In this document: piece by piece, positions 25,036 through 59,834 of the stretch
Position numbering within the stretch: position 1 is the first letter of the stretch
Layout: the number at the start of each line of letters is the position of its first letter
NCBI GenBank assembly: GCA_030606485.1
Contig: JAUWGH010000010.1
Location: 1-64,000 of the forward strand
Source: Promethearchaeota archaeon
Lineage (GTDB): Archaea; Asgardarchaeota; Lokiarchaeia; Sigyniarchaeales; SOKP01
DNA length: 64,000 bases
Reading direction: 5' to 3'
Notes under the pieces: model-generated
Seen by the model: only the letters and a program-made list of their open reading frames with translations
The model's database searches: none
What the model was told of the DNA's origin: nothing
Position numbers and translations under genes: made by a program

Positions 25036-25998
25036 TCAAAATTCTTGCTTTGCTCTTTCTTTAAACCATTCCATAAATTTAGTGAATCTATTTTCATCTA
25101 TAATATCTTTTACTTTATATAAATGAAGATAACCATATCTGGAAAAATATATACCTAATTTTTTTATTTCGTTTTGTGATGGCATATCAGCAATTCCTCC
25201 AATTCTATATAGAGTATAATAACCAATTAATTGATTGAAATAATCTCTGTGCATTTGAAGTTTTTTTGTAGTTTTTATATCAATTAATTTATCATCAATA
25301 ACTAAATCTGCATCAGCCCCTCCAACTAGTTTTGAAGCTTTACCAAATGTCGGATTTAGCAAACATATTTCATTTGCTTTGAAAAAATCTGGATTAACTA
25401 GAGAAATAAGATTATTTAGATCCTCAATATCTTTACCATCAATATTATAACTTTTTGTTATATGACTCACCCTATAAATAGGATCTAATTTAGCAAGCAA
25501 TAATGTAGATTTTATCAGATTGTCATTTATTTGACCGTTTTTAAGAAATAAAAAATAATTTTTCTTGGCGTTTGAGATTATTTTTATTGCTTTTTGATAA
25601 TGTTTTTTGATGATTTTTATTTTTTGTTTATGATTTTTTATTGCATAACGCTTTTCTATTAATTTAAGCATTTTAAACAATTTTTCTACAACTAATTCTT
25701 TATTAACAAAAGTAAGATTTTTTAATGGTTTTCGCTTCTCTAACAATTCATTTACTTCAAGTACTAGTTCAAGCAATTTAAGTGAGCCTTCGGCAACCCA
25801 TTGCTTAGTAATAGCTTTTGTATTTAAATATTTTATATAAAATCGTAAAAGATAATCAAAAGATGTTCCAACCAATCCGTAATCTTGAGTTAAGGGGGGA
25901 CATAATATCTCTTTTTTTATATCAAATCTTGGTTTAGGATATTCTTCTCGAAATTTTTCTCTTACATCTTTTTTATTCAAAAATGAAGTTAAACTCAT
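25036..25998 (-). CDS. RecB/Cas4-like PD-(D/E)XK nuclease
   Basis: The C-terminal third carries a PD-(D/E)XK core: GGADADLVIDDKLIDIKTTK provides Asp231 and the Asp240-x-Lys242 pair, followed by QLIGY (Gln256-x3-Tyr260), the QxxxY motif of RecB and Cas4 family nucleases. The N-terminal 200 residues are mostly helical and Lys-rich, with no helicase motif and no Cas4-type Cys cluster visible. It is the last gene of a minus-strand row of four small genes, with an AbrB-like regulator divergent at the far end, as in defence islands or integrated elements. No cas genes are present. A structured RNA candidate lies in its upstream spacer. Confidence 0.7.
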   Translation of the reverse strand: MSLTSFLNKKDVREKFREEYPKPRFDIKKEILCPPLTQDYGLVGTSFDYLLRFYIKYLNTKAITKQWVAEGSLKLLELVLEVNELLEKRKPLKNLTFVNKELVVEKLFKMLKLIEKRYAIKNHKQKIKIIKKHYQKAIKIISNAKKNYFLFLKNGQINDNLIKSTLLLAKLDPIYRVSHITKSYNIDGKDIEDLNNLISLVNPDFFKANEICLLNPTFGKASKLVGGADADLVIDDKLIDIKTTKKLQMHRDYFNQLIGYYTLYRIGGIADMPSQNEIKKLGIYFSRYGYLHLYKVKDIIDENRFTKFMEWFKERAKQEF

Positions 25999-26036: not shown

Positions 26037-26136
26037 GGACTCCTGCTACATAGAGGGGTATAGAGGGGGAGGGCGAAATGGTGTAGATTTAATTCCACAT
26101 CAACCAAAAGACAAAAATCCAGAGTAGCAGGAATCC
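26037..26136 (+). ncRNA. structured RNA candidate, copy 1
   Basis: Arms GGACTCCTGCTAC (26037-26049) and GTAGCAGGAATCC (26124-26136) pair over 13 bp with one mismatch. The enclosed core GGGGGAGGGCGAAA ... GTGTAGAT ... CAACCAAAAGACAAAAATCC is nearly identical to that at 55750-55812, while the closing arms are entirely different there yet still pair. A T-rich run directly follows the 3' arm on the plus strand, which suggests that orientation. The element lies between two minus-strand genes. Confidence 0.5.
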
Positions 26137-26146
26137 TTTTTTAATT

Positions 26147-26365
26147 TTATTTTTTGTTTTGAATTTCCTCTAATTTGTCTATTTTATATTTCATTTCCAT
26201 TAAAAAATTATTAATTTCGCTTAATTCCTTATCGGAAAGATATTTTATTGCATTTTCAAATTCTGGATATATTTTTCCAGATAATTTCCTCATAGTTGGA
26301 ATTATGTTGTAAATTCTAAAACTTAGATTAATTTGTTTATTATCTTTTGAATTATTTTCATTCAT
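26147..26365 (-). CDS. small helical protein in nuclease island
   Basis: 72 residues, polar and largely helical (FENAIKYLSDKELSEINNFL), with no membrane span. It sits between the nuclease gene and another small gene on the same strand, separated from the next start by about 20 bp, so cotranscription is likely. No family recognised. Confidence 0.55.
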   Translation of the reverse strand: MNENNSKDNKQINLSFRIYNIIPTMRKLSGKIYPEFENAIKYLSDKELSEINNFLMEMKYKIDKLEEIQNKK

Positions 26366-31839: not shown

Positions 31840-31946
31840 TGACTCCTATCACAAATCAAGGGCTAAAAGAAGAAAGTCGATTTATATAAAGTAAATTTTT
31901 TTTATAGCACATCTAAGAGCTAAAAATTCCAATGTAATAGGAGTCA
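31840..31946 (+). ncRNA. structured RNA candidate, copy 4 (divergent)
   Basis: Perfect 10-bp closing arms TGACTCCTAT (31840-31849) and ATAGGAGTCA (31937-31946). Inside are GGCTAAAA and GCTAAAAATTCCA, which resemble the GGCGAAA and GACAAAAATCCA core pieces of copies 1 and 2. Its 5' arm (GGTGACTCCT) resembles that of copy 1 (GGTGGGACTCCT). A T-rich run follows the 3' arm. Membership of the same family is less certain than for the others. Confidence 0.4.
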
Positions 31947-39816: not shown

Positions 39817-41205
39817 TTAGCAACAACCTAGCATCTGACAAGCAATATAAGTACTTCCAGTCATAAGAAAATATTCTAATCCAAGAATACAGAATGCACC
39901 TGCACCAGGCACAAAGATAATTAAAAGTACACATGCTATGAATCCACCTGCAGCAACAGCAAGTTCACACAAAACACAGTCCCAGAAAGGGTCACCGCCA
40001 AAGCAGCCACCACCGCCAAGGAGGCCACCGCCACCGCCACCATTGGGTGTGTATGCATCAATTATAATTACTGAATTTTGTTGAATTGGTAAATCATATT
40101 CAGAAAGACATTTTTTTACAAGATATGAAAGTTCCTCAGCTTCTTTGTTCATGACCTTATAGTTGTTGGAAAAACCTTTTAACGAATCATCTTCACTATA
40201 TTTATATACTTCTCCAAGTTCTTTAGCTACTTCTCCTATAATATGGTATTGTTGTGATAATTTAACAGGCGAATTGAACTTTACGATCTCCATCGATGTA
40301 ATAGACTTTTCGTCGGCAGGGATATATCTTAAAATCGTGGAAGAACCATTATAGATTTCTGAATTGAGGGAAGTAAGTCTCGTATAAAAAGTCAAATTAT
40401 ATTCTTCATGTTGAGCTAGATAGTTTAGTTCATAAAATTGCGTGGACGTGTCTCCTGTAATGATTTCACTTGAAATGAAAGAAGCAGTTCTTTTGATTTC
40501 ATTTGTGATCTCATTATAACTCCATAGTAAAGTATTGATAATAGTAAACTCATAGGTTATACCATCAAACTCGTATGTTAGGAGAATTACAATATGATTA
40601 TCGTCTTGCTCTAACACTGTGGACGTGATAGTTATGGATTCACTGTTATCTGGGCATTCCTGATTACTGGTGCAGCATGGACAACCTGTCAGATATAGAA
40701 GTAGAGGTTCTATTTGAAGTTTTGGTTTTTCTATTCCATCTACTGTAACATAGTGATAAGTTGTCCAGATCGGGTATTTAACATCTATCCATGCTAGAAT
40801 GCCGCCAAGCATATTGTTGATTTTCGTAAAGCCATAGTTAACTAGGATTTCTGATGCTAATTGACTCCTGTCTCCAGCCTTGCAGTATATTATAATCTCA
40901 TGATTTACGTGATCTTCAATTTCGCTAATTCTTTTTTCAAGTCCATCGTAGGGTATTAAAATGGCATCGTATAAATGACCCTTCTTATACTCATACGGGG
41001 TTCTAACATCCAAAATTATAAGGTTTGGATATTTATTTTCTTTTTTTATCATGTTATAGGCAGTATCCACAGTAATGTTTTGAAAGGTTTGTTCTTCAGC
41101 AGCAACCGTTATTATTAAACTGAAAGATGGTAGCAAAAAGGCAACTATAATGAGCAGAGCTATTGTTTTACGACTTGTATATTTTAAATTAGTTTTTAAT
41201 TTCAT
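39817..41205 (-). CDS. secreted rhodanese protein with C-terminal halocin C8-like module
   Basis: The domains, in order, are: a signal peptide (IALLIIVAFLLPSFSLIITV); a rhodanese domain, residues about 45-150, with LDVRTPYEYKKGH and the active-site loop YCKAGDRS (Cys108); a short Cys segment TGCPCCTSNQECPDN; a beta-rich domain; a helical region (about 315-385); a glycine linker; and a Cys-rich hydrophobic end (401-462) with DCVLCELAVAAGGFIACVLL, FVPGAGAFCILGLEY and IACQMLGCC, eight Cys in all. In haloarchaea the halocin C8 precursor has an N-terminal immunity protein, and its C-terminal peptide contains a similar CxxxxAGGFIC...PVAGLSCLGF pattern. I infer a related antimicrobial or membrane-active peptide precursor fused to a rhodanese. 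An in-operon membrane protein follows. Upstream lies repeat region A. Confidence 0.72.
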   Translation of the reverse strand: MKLKTNLKYTSRKTIALLIIVAFLLPSFSLIITVAAEEQTFQNITVDTAYNMIKKENKYPNLIILDVRTPYEYKKGHLYDAILIPYDGLEKRISEIEDHVNHEIIIYCKAGDRSQLASEILVNYGFTKINNMLGGILAWIDVKYPIWTTYHYVTVDGIEKPKLQIEPLLLYLTGCPCCTSNQECPDNSESITITSTVLEQDDNHIVILLTYEFDGITYEFTIINTLLWSYNEITNEIKRTASFISSEIITGDTSTQFYELNYLAQHEEYNLTFYTRLTSLNSEIYNGSSTILRYIPADEKSITSMEIVKFNSPVKLSQQYHIIGEVAKELGEVYKYSEDDSLKGFSNNYKVMNKEAEELSYLVKKCLSEYDLPIQQNSVIIIDAYTPNGGGGGGLLGGGGCFGGDPFWDCVLCELAVAAGGFIACVLLIIFVPGAGAFCILGLEYFLMTGSTYIACQMLGCC

Positions 41206-41220
41206 TTTTTCACACTTTTT

Positions 41221-41464
41221 ATATTAAATTTTTTATTATAAAATTTTCCGTTTGTATTTTCCATTAAGTGGATATTTAAATATTACTGACAAAATATGAA
41301 TATAAAGAACCTACTATGAAATCTTCACAAGGCAAGATCAGAAAATTTTAAATGACTGGAAATTCATAATTAAATGTTTAACTACATTTAAAAACAGAAT
41401 TATTATAATATTTTAATGAACGAACATCAGAAACTTTTATTTTTTTGATTTATGATATGGCAAC
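41221..41464 (-). promoter_or_regulatory. duplicated upstream region A
   Basis: Homologous over about 240 bp to regions B and C. Shared blocks include TATAAAATTTTCCGTTTG, GATATTTAAATAT-ACTGAC, GAATATAAAGAACCTACTAT and AATTCATAATTAAATGTTTA. It lies directly before the rhodanese/halocin-like gene. ATATTTAAATAT makes a plausible TATA box 60-70 bases before the ATG. The far end carries ATATGGCAAC (41455-41464). Confidence 0.7.
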
Positions 41465-46039: not shown

Positions 46040-46440
46040 ATTTGTTAAAAAATTTCTTTTATAAAATAATTATAAAATCTTACATTTTTATAAAAAAAGA
46101 CCCATGAGAATTACTAAAGTTCAATTTTTACTTATAAGCGCTTCTCTCTCCAAAAAGTTTTAAAATTTCTTTTTTCGTCGATTTTTTGTCGGTCTTATAT
46201 TTAAATAAAAATATTATGATAATAGGGTTGGTCTAATTTCTTAGAATAGCTCAAATGTTAGTTTTAAAAATTATTAAGAAAAAATAAGAATTAATTTATC
46301 TGAATATTATTGAATTCCTATAAAAAATTCTTTCCAATTCAACAACATTCTGAATTTTGAATAGTTTATTGACCAGCTTTGAAATTTTTTTCAATCATAA
46401 TAAATGTTAATTAAAATTGATAATTTTGAGACAAAAAATG
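46040..46440. other. intergenic, divergent promoters
   Basis: Lies between the GNAT gene (minus) and region D (plus). AT-rich, with a TATA-like ATATTTAAATAAAAATATTA near 46197. No ORF, hairpin or repeat that I can support. Confidence 0.45.
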
Positions 46441-46683
46441 GTTGCCATATTATAAATCGAAAAATGAAAGTTATATTACCATTTCATCTAAAAATTTTAT
46501 TATAAAATAATAATAAAATAAGGTTAAAAATTTTAAGGTATTTTTAAAATCTTTTAAATTTGTGGGATTTAATCTTGTATAGGGTTTAACATAGTTTCAT
46601 TGTGATTAAAAATTGTCATATGTATTTAAAAAGGAAAATCTACTGAATGTTATTATCGAAAATTATAAGAAAAATAAATTAAT
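46441..46683 (+). promoter_or_regulatory. duplicated upstream region D
   Basis: About 240 bp homologous to region E at 50397-50642, with shared blocks CCATATTATAAAT, AAAATTTTATTATAAA, AGGTTAAAAATTTTAAG, TTTTAAAATCTTTTAAATTT and GTCATATGTATTTAAAAAGG. It precedes the gene at 46709. It begins with GTTGCCATAT (46441-46450), the reverse complement of the ATATGGCAAC at the far ends of regions A and C. TATTTAAAAA near 46622 is a candidate TATA box. Confidence 0.7.
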
Positions 46684-47815: not shown

Positions 47816-47892
47816 ATAATATCATCTCTACTCTTAATTAGATTTCTCTATAATATGGAATTTTACTTTAATGAAAATAAAGTAAAAATCAC

Positions 47893-48170
47893 TCTTTTCA
47901 ATATACCATTTCATTTTTTTATCAATTTTCTAATATCTTATACATTTAAGTCAAATTTTTAACTATAAAATTTTCCGTTTGCATTTTTCATTAAGTAGAT
48001 ATTTAAATATAACTGACAACATATGAATACAACGAATCTACTATGAGATCTCCACAAGGTAAGATCATAAAATTCTAAATAATTGGGAATTCATAATTAA
48101 ATGTTTAACTAAATTTAATAATTGAATTATTATAAAAAATTAATGAATAGATGTCAGAAACTTTTATTTT
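47893..48170 (-). promoter_or_regulatory. duplicated upstream region B
   Basis: About 280 bp in register with region C (49649-49930) and with A. Shared blocks include ACTCTTTTCAATAT-CCATTTCATTTT, ATAAAATTTTC, TATTTAAATATAACTGACAA, GAATACAACGAATCT and TTAATAATTGAATTATTATA. It lies upstream of the coupled micro-genes (start 47815) and directly after the stop of the beta-sandwich gene. It lacks the terminal ATATGGCAAC. Confidence 0.7.
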
Positions 48171-49539: not shown

Positions 49540-49648
49540 TTGGTTTCCCTCCTATAATTTAAATAAGCTTGATTTGTTCGCTCAACGTCATAGAGGTTAA
49601 TTCCCATCAATTTATAAGTAAGTATATCCAATATTTTTTTGAGTTTCT

Positions 49649-49950
49649 CGCTCTTTTCAATATGCCATTTCATTTTATTATCAATTTTTTAATATTTTAT
49701 ATATTTAAGTCAAATTTTTTATTATAAAATTTTCAGTTAGCAACTTTCAGTAAATTATTATTTAAATATAACTGACAAGAAATGAATACAACGAATCTGC
49801 TATGAGATCTTCACAAAGCAAGATCACAAAATTTTAAATGACTGGGAAATCATAATTAGATGTTTAACTAAATTTAATAATTGAATTATTATAAAAAATT
49901 AATGAATAAATATCAGAAAATTTTATTTTTTTGATTTCTGATATGGCAAC
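49649..49950 (-). promoter_or_regulatory. duplicated upstream region C
   Basis: Homologous to B and A over 240-280 bp, upstream of the beta-sandwich gene. It contains TATTTAAATATAACTGACAA and ends distally with TTTCTGATATGGCAAC, as region A does (TTTATGATATGGCAAC). A second TATA-like run (TTAAATATATAAAATATT on the minus strand) lies near 49681-49698. Confidence 0.7.
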
Positions 49951-50396
49951 ATTTTAAATGTTTTAGATTGGGTGCATAATTTATCTTCATATTAAAGATT
50001 TTATACTCAATATGAAGAATTTATTTAATTAATGAAAAAATTAGAAATTAAATTAAAAGTAAGCTAATCGAGTGAAACTAAAATGTACACTAAATGAATT
50101 TTTTAGCTAAGCTAAATTTGTTAATTAGAAACTCAATAGAGAGAAAATATATAATACATTTCATAATTTAATTCGAAATCTCGATTTTTAGCAATTTCAC
50201 TGTATCGATATTTTTTCAGTTTGATTTAAATATCATATTATAATTATGGGAGTAATACATCACAAAAAATTTCTATATTTCTCCCATATTATCTCTCTTC
50301 TAATTTATTATCTTTCTTAGTTTCTTGAGAATCTTTTCAAATAAATATCTGAAATTCATTTTTTTTTATGATTATTAATTTCGAGATATAAAAAAA
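49951..50396. other. intergenic between divergent regions C and E
   Basis: AT-rich spacer separating the minus-strand upstream region C from the plus-strand region E. I see no ORF or structured repeat. Confidence 0.5.
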
Positions 50397-50642
50397 GATG
50401 CCATATTATAAATAGAAAAATAAAAGTTATATGACCATTTCAGCTAAAAATTTTATTATAAATTAATAATAAAACGAGGTTAAAAATTTTAAGACATTTT
50501 TAAAATCTTTTAAATTTGTGAGATTTAATCTTATATAAGGTTTAATTTAGTTTCATTTTGATTAAAAATTGTCATATGTATTTAAAAAGGAAAATGTACC
50601 ATGCGTTATTATTGAAAATTTTAAGAAAAAAAATAATTTAAT
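50397..50642 (+). promoter_or_regulatory. duplicated upstream region E
   Basis: Homologous to D over about 240 bp (TGCCATATTATAAAT at its start; GTCATATGTATTTAAAAAGGAAAAT near its end), upstream of the membrane protein gene at 50673. Differences are mainly point changes, so the duplication is fairly old or the sequence is under selection. Confidence 0.7.
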
Positions 50643-55708: not shown

Positions 55709-55844
55709 GGATAAAGTCTTTAATGCTTCTCCGCCCATCAATAAATAGGGGGAGGAGGAGGGCGAAAATAAGTGTAGATAAATACTACACCAACCAAAAG
55801 ACAAAAATCCAGTATGGGGGGAGATGCAACCTTTGACTTTATCC
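55709..55844 (+). ncRNA. structured RNA candidate, copy 2
   Basis: The outer helix GGATAAAGTC (55709-55718) / GACTTTATCC (55835-55844) is perfect over 10 bp. A second helix pairs TGCTTCTCCGCCCAT with ATGGGGGGAGATGCA (two mismatches). Inside are the core GGAGGAGGGCGAAAA, the perfect hairpin GTGTAG-ATAAATA-CTACAC, and CAACCAAAAGACAAAAATCC. The core matches copy 1 (26 kb) while the outer helix matches copy 3 (58.8 kb). It lies between convergent genes, so it is not a leader. Orientation is assumed from copy 1. Confidence 0.55.
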
Positions 55845-55925
55845 TTACCAATATTATCTAAAAATTAACTATAAAAAGATTTCTATTCCTTTTTTTTGTT
55901 TAAAAAGGTCCATTGAAATTATCAT

Positions 55926-56201
55926 TTAAAAACTATCATTTAATACTGAACCTACTTGTATCGCAAGATAATTTAAGATAACATCGTAATCTTCAGGTGT
56001 TATTTCCTTGGTCCTAAGAACAAACTTTTTAATACTATTAATACATGAGAGTTGGTTTCTAATTTTTTCAGATTGGAATTTATTCTGGAGATAAGATTCT
56101 TGATTCTTAATTTCACATATTAACTTATCTCTTAATTCCTCAAATTGTGCATTAAATGCAATATTGTCAATTCCCATGTTATTAATTCTAAAATTCATCA
56201 T
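55926..56201 (-). CDS. small helical protein
   Basis: 91 residues, mostly helical (AQFEELRDKLICEIKNQESY ... NSIKKFVLRTKEITPEDYD), with no membrane span. ATG start; no clear ribosome-binding site. A four-helix-type small protein such as HEPN-like is conceivable, but no R-x4-H motif is seen. Unknown. Confidence 0.5.
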   Translation of the reverse strand: MMNFRINNMGIDNIAFNAQFEELRDKLICEIKNQESYLQNKFQSEKIRNQLSCINSIKKFVLRTKEITPEDYDVILNYLAIQVGSVLNDSF

Positions 56202-56328
56202 TATAATTTCAGATTAAATTCTAATTATTTAAATAAAAAAGGAGCGGTAAGATACTATTAAAGAAAGAGATATAACTAAATTATTAAGACTATATTTTCA
56301 TAAAATAAAAAAAAATAAGATAATACAC

Positions 56329-56406
56329 TTATCTTGAAAAGAAATATTCTATAAGGGCTTTTGTGAAACCATCCAGCCACTCGTTATTAATCTCGGCCCA
56401 CTTTAT
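56329..56406 (-). CDS. micro-ORF with perfect ribosome-binding site and AUA start
   Basis: An ideal AGGAGGTGA is followed after 6 bases by ATA and 24 sense codons (KWAEINNEWLDGFTKALIEY FFSR, ending TAA 56329). An adjacent ATC could also initiate, and no ATG, GTG or TTG opens this frame at a sensible distance. The peptide is amphipathic. The strength of the ribosome-binding site is the main evidence. The rest of the 56202-56732 spacer shows nothing else. Confidence 0.4.
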   Translation of the reverse strand: MKWAEINNEWLDGFTKALIEYFFSR

Positions 56407-56732
56407 GATTTTTCACCTCCTGTAATTTTTTATTCAAAATTTGAAAAAATTGAATTGAATCATATTTTTAATGAAGATATATAAAGAAAAAATGAGAACC
56501 AAAAGAGATTAAATTGAATAAAACTTACTTTCTCTCTAAAAGAATTATTGTTTTATATCAATTGGGACAATATAATCATGAATTATGTAATTTTAGTTTG
56601 TTTCCGATATGATTACACTTTAATTCTATATTTAAAGAAAGAAAATAATTGTTGAAAGAATTTTTTCTCTTTAAATAGATTTATTTTAAGAAAAGTATAA
56701 CCATTAATTTTCTATAAAAATCGGAATTTATT

Positions 56733-57761
56733 ATGAGTAAAATCAATCGAAGGAAAAAAAATAATAAATGGAATACATCAGAAAATGAAGAAGTAAAAAG
56801 ATATTATTTATTGGGTAATAAATTTCTTGAACAAAGAAATTTCCAAGAAGCAATAATCTATTATAAAAAAGCATTAGAAATTGATCCTCAAGATATATTA
56901 ACACTTTCTAATTTAGGCCGAGTATACCATCATTCCTATGTTCTGCAATCATCAACTAAAGATCTGAGTTTATTGGACAATTCTGAAGCTTGTTATCTAG
57001 AAGCAACAAAAATAGATCCCAATTTTTGGTTATCATACTTCACTTTGGGAGTAATTAAAATTGAACGGAAAGAATTTTTGAAAGCACTAACATATCATCT
57101 GAAATTTCTTACTGTTTATGAAAAAGCGAAAGTAAAAAACTTCAAAATGTATAATCATGCAACCAATTATATTGTAGAATCCATTAAAAAAGGAAAAATT
57201 TCTGTAGAATCATTCAAAAAATTATTAAATATCTCAATTTCTAAAGAAATATGGACACTATTGGGATACGGTTTGCTACATAGTCAATTATATGAATCTG
57301 CCGAATTATGCTTTCTTAAAGTAATCGAAAAACACCCGGATTATTCTAGTGGATACATTGATTTGGGAAATGTGTATATTGAGATGATTAAAAATATTCC
57401 CGATTATTGTCCTAATTTTAATAAAATTAAAAATTATCTTAAAAAAGCCGTCGAGCTTGACACTAACAATGAAATTGCATGGAATAATCTTGGAACATAT
57501 TACACATTTGTTGATGATTTTGAAAAAGCGAAATTTTGTTATAAAACATCAATCAAACTCAAAAATTACTGCATAACTCCATGGTATAGTCTTGCAAGTA
57601 TTCTGGTCAAGAAGGGTTTATATAAAGAAGCAATAAAATGCCTAAAAAAAGTCGTTCAAATTGATCCAAATTATACCCCTGCTAAAGAAGCGTTGGACAT
57701 ACTTAAGAATAATACTAAGGAACAATTATCCAGGAAAAGAATTGAATTAAGAATAAATTAA
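56733..57761 (+). CDS. tetratricopeptide repeat (TPR) protein
   Basis: 342 residues with about seven TPR motifs. Clear ones are KRYYLLGNKFLEQRNFQEAI, LYESAELCFLKVIEKHPDYS, AWNNLGTYYTFVDDFEKAKF and PWYSLASILVKKGLYKEAIK, each followed by IDP/LDT-type turns. The N-terminus is basic. No other domain; cytosolic. TPR proteins scaffold protein complexes; the partner is unknown. A fragment of a second copy lies at 21320-21502. A zinc-ribbon relic begins directly after the stop. Confidence 0.85.
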   Translation: MSKINRRKKNNKWNTSENEEVKRYYLLGNKFLEQRNFQEAIIYYKKALEIDPQDILTLSNLGRVYHHSYVLQSSTKDLSLLDNSEACYLEATKIDPNFWLSYFTLGVIKIERKEFLKALTYHLKFLTVYEKAKVKNFKMYNHATNYIVESIKKGKISVESFKKLLNISISKEIWTLLGYGLLHSQLYESAELCFLKVIEKHPDYSSGYIDLGNVYIEMIKNIPDYCPNFNKIKNYLKKAVELDTNNEIAWNNLGTYYTFVDDFEKAKFCYKTSIKLKNYCITPWYSLASILVKKGLYKEAIKCLKKVVQIDPNYTPAKEALDILKNNTKEQLSRKRIELRIN

Positions 57762-57762
57762 A

Positions 57763-57860
57763 TCAATCAGTTAAACTAACCAATAACTTACAATTTTTGC
57801 AATATATAAAAGGATTATGAACCTTTAATTGTAAAGGAGTTTCACATTTGGAAGATACTA
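57763..57860 (-). pseudogene. relic of the duplicated zinc-ribbon gene
   Basis: Minus-strand coding reads SSKCETPLQLKVHNPFIYCK and NCKLLVSLTD before TGA, matching the end of the protein at 59565-59834 nearly base for base (CSKCETPLQLKVHNPFIYCK there). The first Cys of the pair is already lost to Ser and the N-terminal ribbon is absent. Confidence 0.75.
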
Positions 57861-57904: not shown

Positions 57905-58585
57905 TTATAATAAAATTTTTAATACTTTATCAACACTCGATTTATTTTGCTTTAATCTCCCTGAAAAATAAGTAATTAGGTGATATACACATTCCGAAAG
58001 GGTATTGTAATTAAAAGTAAGGCAGGCAAGCTCAACTTCATAACTTGCGATATGCTTCTGCTTAGCTTTATCAAGAGCGTATTTTGCTAGCTTTATCGTA
58101 TTTTTATGTAATGGTCGTAGCTTTTTAATTTGAGCAATTTTCTTTTTCTCCTGTTTAAATTCCTGATTTGTAAGGTATACAACGTCAACATAACATTTGG
58201 GATTTAAAAAATCTATATGGACAGCCTTGTCCCCCATATGCACTTTAGAATTCTTCTTAAATCCTTTTTTAGCCCTCTCTAAAAGATCCTTTCGAATAGT
58301 ATTCTTATTTTGATCTTTGCCAGTACAAAAAATTATGTCTAAATCGCTCTTCCTAATATCTGTTCGCTTCCCTCGTGATCCACCTTCCTTTATCGCTGCG
58401 ATTTTAAAACCTGTAGTCTTTCGTAGGAAGTTCATAACTCGGTTTAATTTCGAATCATATAATGTCTGGGTTTGAGGATCGGTATTAATTTTCTTTAAAA
58501 ATTCTTTAAGCTTTCTATTCTCTAATTTCTTAAGACTACTCGTTTTTTCCACCTTTGTATATTTATTGAAATAGTATTTTAACAA
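57905..58585 (-). CDS. OAS/CD-NTase-like nucleotidyltransferase
   Basis: The core of the DNA-polymerase-beta-type nucleotidyltransferase fold is present: EGGSRGKRTDIRKSDLDII gives the GS motif (Gly69-Ser70) and the metal pair Asp81-x-Asp83. The third acid is Asp134 in CYVDVVYL after the strand VHIDFL. The GTDxRxxSDxD-like loop and the trailing helical part (SYEVELACLTFNYNTLSECV) match the OAS/cGAS-like branch better than CCA-adding enzymes. At 226 residues it is shorter than typical CD-NTases (about 300-400), so the C-terminal domain is reduced. A cyclic or linear oligonucleotide signalling role is inferred. No classical CBASS effector is next to it; an unknown 175-residue protein is upstream, with RNA candidate copy 3 between. 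Confidence 0.6.
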   Translation of the reverse strand: MLKYYFNKYTKVEKTSSLKKLENRKLKEFLKKINTDPQTQTLYDSKLNRVMNFLRKTTGFKIAAIKEGGSRGKRTDIRKSDLDIIFCTGKDQNKNTIRKDLLERAKKGFKKNSKVHMGDKAVHIDFLNPKCYVDVVYLTNQEFKQEKKKIAQIKKLRPLHKNTIKLAKYALDKAKQKHIASYEVELACLTFNYNTLSECVYHLITYFSGRLKQNKSSVDKVLKILL

Positions 58586-58766: not shown

Positions 58767-58866
58767 AAGGATAAAGCCCGTTGGTATTTATTTCCTCTAA
58801 AAAACGAGGTTAAGGGCATTGGCGAAAACATTTCGAATATAAATACCGATTTTTGACTTTATCCTT
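58767..58866 (+). ncRNA. structured RNA candidate, copy 3
   Basis: Outer helix AAGGATAAAG (58767-58776) / CTTTATCCTT (58857-58866), perfect over 10 bp; second helix GGTATTTAT (58783-58791) / ATAAATACC (58839-58847), perfect over 9 bp. Two inner hairpins are CCTC...GAGG and CGAAA-ACA-TTTCG. The outer arms and flanking TTTGACTTTATCCTTAC match copy 2, while the inner part is different apart from GGCGAAAA. It lies between two minus-strand genes; transcribed strand unknown. Confidence 0.5.
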
Positions 58867-59466: not shown

Positions 59467-59564
59467 TTAAATCGCTCTATTGTCATGAAATGCTAATAAT
59501 AAACTATTGTTTTTGATCTATTAAAAATATTTTGACACCCAAGTCGACACTTGAAATTAAAGAA

Positions 59565-59834
59565 TCAATCAGTTAAACTAACCAAGAACTTACAATTTTT
59601 ACAATATATAAAAGGATTATGAACCTTTAATTGTAAAGGAGTCTCGCATTTGGAACATATAATATTTCTTTCAGGAATAAGACCTACTATAAACTGACAT
59701 TCACCGCAATAGACAAAGGGCTTTTGAACCTCTAATTCGAAGGGCTTATCGCAAGCCGGGCATCTAGCACTATGCTCATGAAAAATAGTTTCAATCCCTT
59801 CTACATTGTAAATATTCATTACTTCCGAATACAT
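59565..59834 (-). CDS. double zinc-ribbon protein
   Basis: Start at ATG 59834 (MYSEVMNIYNVEGIE), since a related frame at 61228 also begins MYSEV. Two tandem ribbons follow: ARCPACDKPFELEVQKPFVY with CGEC, and IICSKCETPLQLKVHNPFIY with CKNC, so the protein binds two zinc ions. One intact copy, one truncated copy (61007-61228) and two relics (33174, 57763) occur in this window, so it duplicates readily. Role unknown; the copies near 59-61 kb flank small unknown genes. Confidence 0.7.
   Translation of the reverse strand: MYSEVMNIYNVEGIETIFHEHSARCPACDKPFELEVQKPFVYCGECQFIVGLIPERNIICSKCETPLQLKVHNPFIYCKNCKFLVSLTD

Follow-up and report, generated by a model that had tools for sequence, protein, structure and literature searches.

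Comparative genomics has brought to light several orphan families of structured noncoding RNAs, for example GOLLD, HEARO, and OLE. Pseudoknots are present in HDV-like ribozymes, where the pseudoknot is nested and the catalytic segment is J4/2, and in the omega RNAs of IS200/IS605 elements, which are noncoding RNAs linked to the transposon and to TnpB. Sm-like rings bind RNA at a single-stranded site with the consensus RAU(4-6)GR. Little is known about the noncoding RNAs of Asgard archaea, the relatives of eukaryotes.

The window analyzed here, a stretch of 64,000 nucleotides from a genome of Lokiarchaeia (3.75 Mb), contains copies of an RNA family that has not been catalogued previously and that is near-universal and multi-copy in one taxonomic family of Lokiarchaeia. 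We consider it likely that the copies represent a family of independent small noncoding RNA genes restricted to this lineage, which are predicted to be transcribed from the minus strand and to act in trans.

Copies of the RNA in the window

The evidence supports a fold built on a three-way junction that is closed by the helix P1 and bears the hairpins P3 and P2. Strong conservation marks two strands of the junction, J1 (GGAUUUUUGUCUUUUGG) and J2, in which a variable part comes after CGCCCUCC. An identical core of 20 nt, CAACCAAAAGACAAAAATCC, is shared by the copies at 26037 and 55709 (positions 26101-26120 and 55791-55810). Shuffled windows yielded 0.03 core matches at up to three mismatches, and none of 100 shuffles contained two. 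The closing helices of the two copies are unrelated in sequence and pair well, as the sequence-only reading had claimed, with GGACTCCTGCTAC/GTAGCAGGAATCC in the copy at 26037 and GGATAAAGTC/GACTTTATCC plus CTCCGCCCAT/ATGGGGGGAG in the copy at 55709.

The core domain of the first copy (copy a) occupies positions 26037-26136 of the minus strand (68.2 bits, E 2e-15). Its P1 arms, at 26124-26136 (5' in the RNA sense) and 26037-26049 (3'), form 13 uninterrupted pairs on the minus strand and contain an A-C mismatch on the plus strand. J1 (RNA GGAUUUUUGUCUUUUGG) lies at 26104-26120, and P2 is missing. The leader of copy a (26164-26180, minus strand) falls within the terminal (3') part of a small ORF upstream and comprises a pseudoknot strand (RNA UAGAGGAAA, 26164-26172) complementary to its own J2 and a strand called H5 (RNA AGACAAA, 26174-26180) that, as read from the sequence, is complementary to its own J1. 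Copy a and locus L005 were duplicated jointly with a small ORF.

Copy b, also on the minus strand (55709-55844, 69.1 bits), possesses an extra outer helix, P0 (55709-55718/55835-55844), in addition to P1 (55728-55738/55814-55824), the P3 hairpin (55772-55790), and J1 (55794-55810). A TATA-like box (CTTTTTATAG, 55869-55878, minus strand) is situated ~25 nt upstream of its 5' end and is kept both in a second copy of b on contig C10 (G000:C10:79007, 92% identical) and in an element at 58767. Copy b and its C10 counterpart lie in a segmental duplication of 2,048 bp (window positions 55713-57756), which starts at the 3' end of the RNA and extends through a TPR gene. A direct repeat of 97 nt (57761-57857 and 59563-59659, 95% identical) is found at the right end of the duplicated segment and has related copies on C10.

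The sequence-only reading had united four copies in one family. This applies to copies a and b, whereas the other two are less clear. The copy at 31840 (copy d, 31841-31945, minus strand) has the perfect arms ascribed to it (P1 at 31937-31945 and 31841-31849) and a J1-like strand, GGAAUUUUUAGCUCUUAG, and the claimed similarity of its inner pieces is weak (21.9 bits, E 0.04 in its own genome), so that it is a probable divergent relative. The element at 58767 (element c, 58769-58864, minus strand) does have the outer helix of copy b, GGATAAAG/CTTTATCC, around a different interior, as had been noticed, and the shared sequence extends a further ~50 bases to the right, where the minus strand resembles a promoter. 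Element c has no covariance-model match, its full-length close matches are confined to its own genome, and its membership in the family is uncertain. A neighboring ORF (57905-58585, minus strand) has a sub-threshold Pfam match to SMODS (CD-NTase-like; 25.5 bits, cut-off 26.5). The window also contains dispersed direct repeats of 282 nt (41162-41443, 47889-48170, and 49648-49929) and 244 nt (46434-46677 and 50390-50633), which show 76-89% identity and are unrelated to the RNA.

Distribution and covariation of the family

The genome encodes five strong copies of the RNA, and the core occurs five times with no more than one mismatch; its 16S rRNA gene is represented only by a truncated copy at a contig end. 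With the copy at C10:236720 as query, BLAST gave matches in 61 of 97 relatives, nearly all of them members of the same taxonomic family. The covariance-model search of the genome and its relatives that had been suggested as a check confirmed this distribution. A first model, built on 25 copies (A2, R1), detected up to 11 copies per genome in 62 of the 65 genomes of the taxonomic family. A second model (R2), built on 103 copies, was again positive in 62 of 65 and gave no match in the 162 other Asgard genomes of the phylum, with the reservation that large searches of this kind filter more strictly and lose weak matches, that the genomes are MAGs of varying quality, and that related copies are not independent of each other.

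Records with an exact core are assemblies of Lokiarchaeota/Lokiarchaeia, apart from one bin labeled Patescibacteria (L225); its RNA copy looks genuine, with compensated P1 and P2, and the label is probably the result of mis-binning. Two exact core matches in viral contigs are located within an ORF, lack the fold, and are attributed to chance. The window has no match in Rfam 15 at the gathering threshold, and permissive thresholds gave only chance matches for copy a and three strong homologous loci.

The compensatory changes among the copies exceed those in shuffled and slid-partner controls, which identifies the element as a structured RNA under selection, as the sequence-only reading had proposed. 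Among 98 distinct copies, 93% of the cells in the three core helices pair, and 20 of the 21 pairs (every pair of P1 and P2, and all but one of the seven in P3) change on both sides, compared with 12.9 in shuffles. Double changes were observed in 256 cells of an alignment that had been fitted to the covariance model, as opposed to 66.8 after shuffling and at most 53 with the partner slid; a MAFFT alignment that was not fitted to the model agrees (31 vs. 10). In P2, for instance, GACCT/AGGTC alternates with GACGC/GCGTC and GATGC/GCATC. J1 is exact in 92 of the 98 copies, and an 18-nt segment remains nearly letter-for-letter constant while its surroundings drift with compensation. Length variants of J1 exist among the copies.

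The region originally delimited around copy a covered the core and left out the 5' leader. The leader is predicted to pair with both of the most conserved internal strands. In the flank to the right of the core, a leader strand upstream of P1 (PK) is complementary to the J2 segment AATAAAATAGGG. The two strands can be unrelated between copies and still match within a copy (e.g., CAAATTATAAGGAGG/TTTTCTTATAATTTG and AATTATGAGGA/TCCTCATAATT). J2 pairs more stably with its own leader (-12.28 kcal/mol) than with the leaders of other copies (-10.67 kcal/mol), and none of 5000 permutations was as good. The covariation of PK with J2 supports the presence of a pseudoknot, although some copies have a weak PK or none, and in a few, such as L170 and L162, PK and H5 have changed places.

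The second leader motif, H5 (AAGATAAAAAT), is complementary to J1. The invariance of J1 puts this helix beyond the reach of a covariation test, and own and swapped leaders do not differ significantly (p=0.18). In the pairings found, H5 varies only between A and G opposite U and between U and C opposite G, a pattern that is supportive but not proof, because the pairings were picked for complementarity. In four loci of one genus (L115, L120, L122, and L167), the motif AAGATAAAAAT is present in two tandem copies ~41 nt apart, the first of which carries the TATA box.

Coding strand, promoters, and genomic neighborhood

Among the imperfect pairs of P1 and P3, A-C outnumbers G-U on the plus strand by 51 to 16, and by 32 to 17 if identical contexts are collapsed and only internal positions are counted. 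Every A-C on one strand is a G-U on its complement, which makes the minus strand the most likely coding strand of the RNA; the initial reading had used the plus strand.

Many copies have been inherited vertically, as indicated by their distribution over syntenic groups. Of 75 non-redundant copies, 23 adjoin the same membrane protein of 132 aa, and 18 adjoin a radical-SAM protein close to the tetraether lipid synthase Tes (432 bits, cut-off 450); the remaining copies fall into smaller syntenic groups, with orthologous positions kept across genera. A search for a function shared by the neighbors found none except at the Tes-like and HHH-protein loci, and the 74 other flanking proteins have no function in common. 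Conserved synteny combined with such functionally unrelated neighbors favors a stand-alone gene.

At the Tes-like locus, which is the ancestral one, a TATA box precedes the H5 motif AAGATAAAAAT by 29-30 nt in nearly all orthologs, and conservation drops off past the P1 arm, after ACCTTT. In L105 and its orthologs, the RNA is separated from the Tes-like gene by a conserved dyad (ATAATATCGATAATACTATAGATATTATT) and a TATA-like region, probably the operator and promoter of that gene. A promoter at a fixed distance and sharp ends, the hallmarks of a stand-alone gene, are thus present at the Tes-like locus but not visible for copies a and d. Like L005, these copies lie between closely spaced ORFs and have no obvious promoter themselves; they could be cis-acting or arise by processing of mRNAs. 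Judging from the sequence, transcription would start at AAGAUAAAAAU, ~30 nt past the TATA box, the 5' end (H5) would pair with J1, and the 3' end would fall right after P1, at ACCUUUU, which would yield a transcript of ~150-250 nt.

In 53 of 70 copies, the gene past the 3' end of the RNA has the same orientation as the RNA, and the gap to the next ORF measures ~34 nt for copy a (ORF start at 25998) and ~28 nt for copy d (a small ORF). This would be expected of a riboswitch or attenuator in the form of a structured 5' leader of the gene that follows, with P1 and the U-tract as expression platform. Such a role in cis is unlikely, because a distance of 100-400 nt usually separates the RNA from the downstream gene, which lies on the opposite strand in one quarter of the copies, the neighboring genes are diverse and share no function, and the conserved TATA-like region and operator-like dyad of the Tes-like locus come after the RNA. 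It is very improbable that the element acts at the level of DNA or termination, as a bidirectional terminator or a protein-binding cruciform. The T-rich stretches past both ends of P1, each on its respective strand, and the intergenic location would agree with such an element, but the pseudoknot co-varies, the internal 18-nt segment is invariant, G-U and A-C are distributed asymmetrically between the strands, and the spacing between TATA box and 5' end is conserved on one side.

The multiple copies with inverted-repeat ends, some of them within segmental duplications, and the contigs of relatives that break at the core are reminiscent of a non-autonomous (MITE-like) transposable element whose arms fold by chance. 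This interpretation is barely credible in view of the co-varying internal hairpins and pseudoknot, the outer arms that differ among copies, the orthologous positions kept across genera, and the inclusion of neighboring genes in the duplications. No target-site duplication is visible at the one boundary examined, that of the duplication of copy b, and transposase families are absent among the Pfam matches listed for the 74 flanking proteins. The sequence-only reading had been right to argue against a transposon end.

Possible function and relation to known systems

As the product of an independent gene family, the RNA would act in trans, in the form of an RNA-protein particle. The invariance of J1, whose partner drifts within the rules of base pairing, suggests that something else binds J1 as well. 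The most plausible candidates are an Sm-like protein and a target RNA, with which the RNA's own 5' end would compete for J1 as a switchable partner. Within J1, GAUUUUUG resembles an Sm/U-tract site; GAUUUUUGU is invariant, although it does not match the final purine of the consensus. The genome encodes three LSM genes. By this resemblance, J1 is possibly a binding site for an Sm-like protein, which we put forward as a proposal. That this Asgard small RNA, with an invariant Sm-like site maskable by its own 5' end, constitutes a switchable Lsm-bound particle with a regulatory or catalytic role in one family of Lokiarchaeia is a speculative idea that we consider improbable. If true, it would bear on the diversification of Sm-ring RNPs before eukaryotes. 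The predicted ends and structure define a specific molecule that is directly testable with metatranscriptomes and by in vitro probing.

Two other roles were considered and rejected. An anti-Shine-Dalgarno action of the C-rich strand is unlikely because GGAGG-type sites are rare; the 40-nt stretches preceding 272 starts contain GGAGG only seven times, with no clear peak. A conserved peptide (AUG-ACU-CCU-GCC...) is contradicted by the lack of the AUG in about one third of the copies and by the J1 length variants, which shift the frame.

Archaeal Lsm proteins have been reported to bind sRNAs (PMC10779274). The RNA described here would resemble such sRNAs in its U-rich segment AUUUUUGUCUUUU and in its co-occurrence with LSM genes; it differs in that its own 5' end can occupy the U-rich strand. 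With HDV-like ribozymes it shares only the topology, i.e., the strand order PK 5', P1 5', hairpin, PK 3', hairpin, P1 3'. An assignment to this class was rejected because the counterpart of J4/2 is not conserved, the conserved strands are located elsewhere, and there is no Rfam match. An H/ACA-type pocket was dismissed because the pairing strands come in the opposite order. The omega RNAs of IS200/IS605 elements are likewise noncoding RNAs of ~150-250 nt with a pseudoknot, whereas the present RNA is closed by the long-range helix P1, has no recognized conserved guide position, and shows no linked transposon or TnpB in the examined flanking proteins. Although it differs from orphan families of the GOLLD, HEARO, and OLE type in that it has no match in Rfam 15 at the gathering threshold and none that is convincing at permissive ones, it resembles them in its strong covariation, its intergenic location, its restriction to one lineage, and the presence of neighbors that do not reveal its function.
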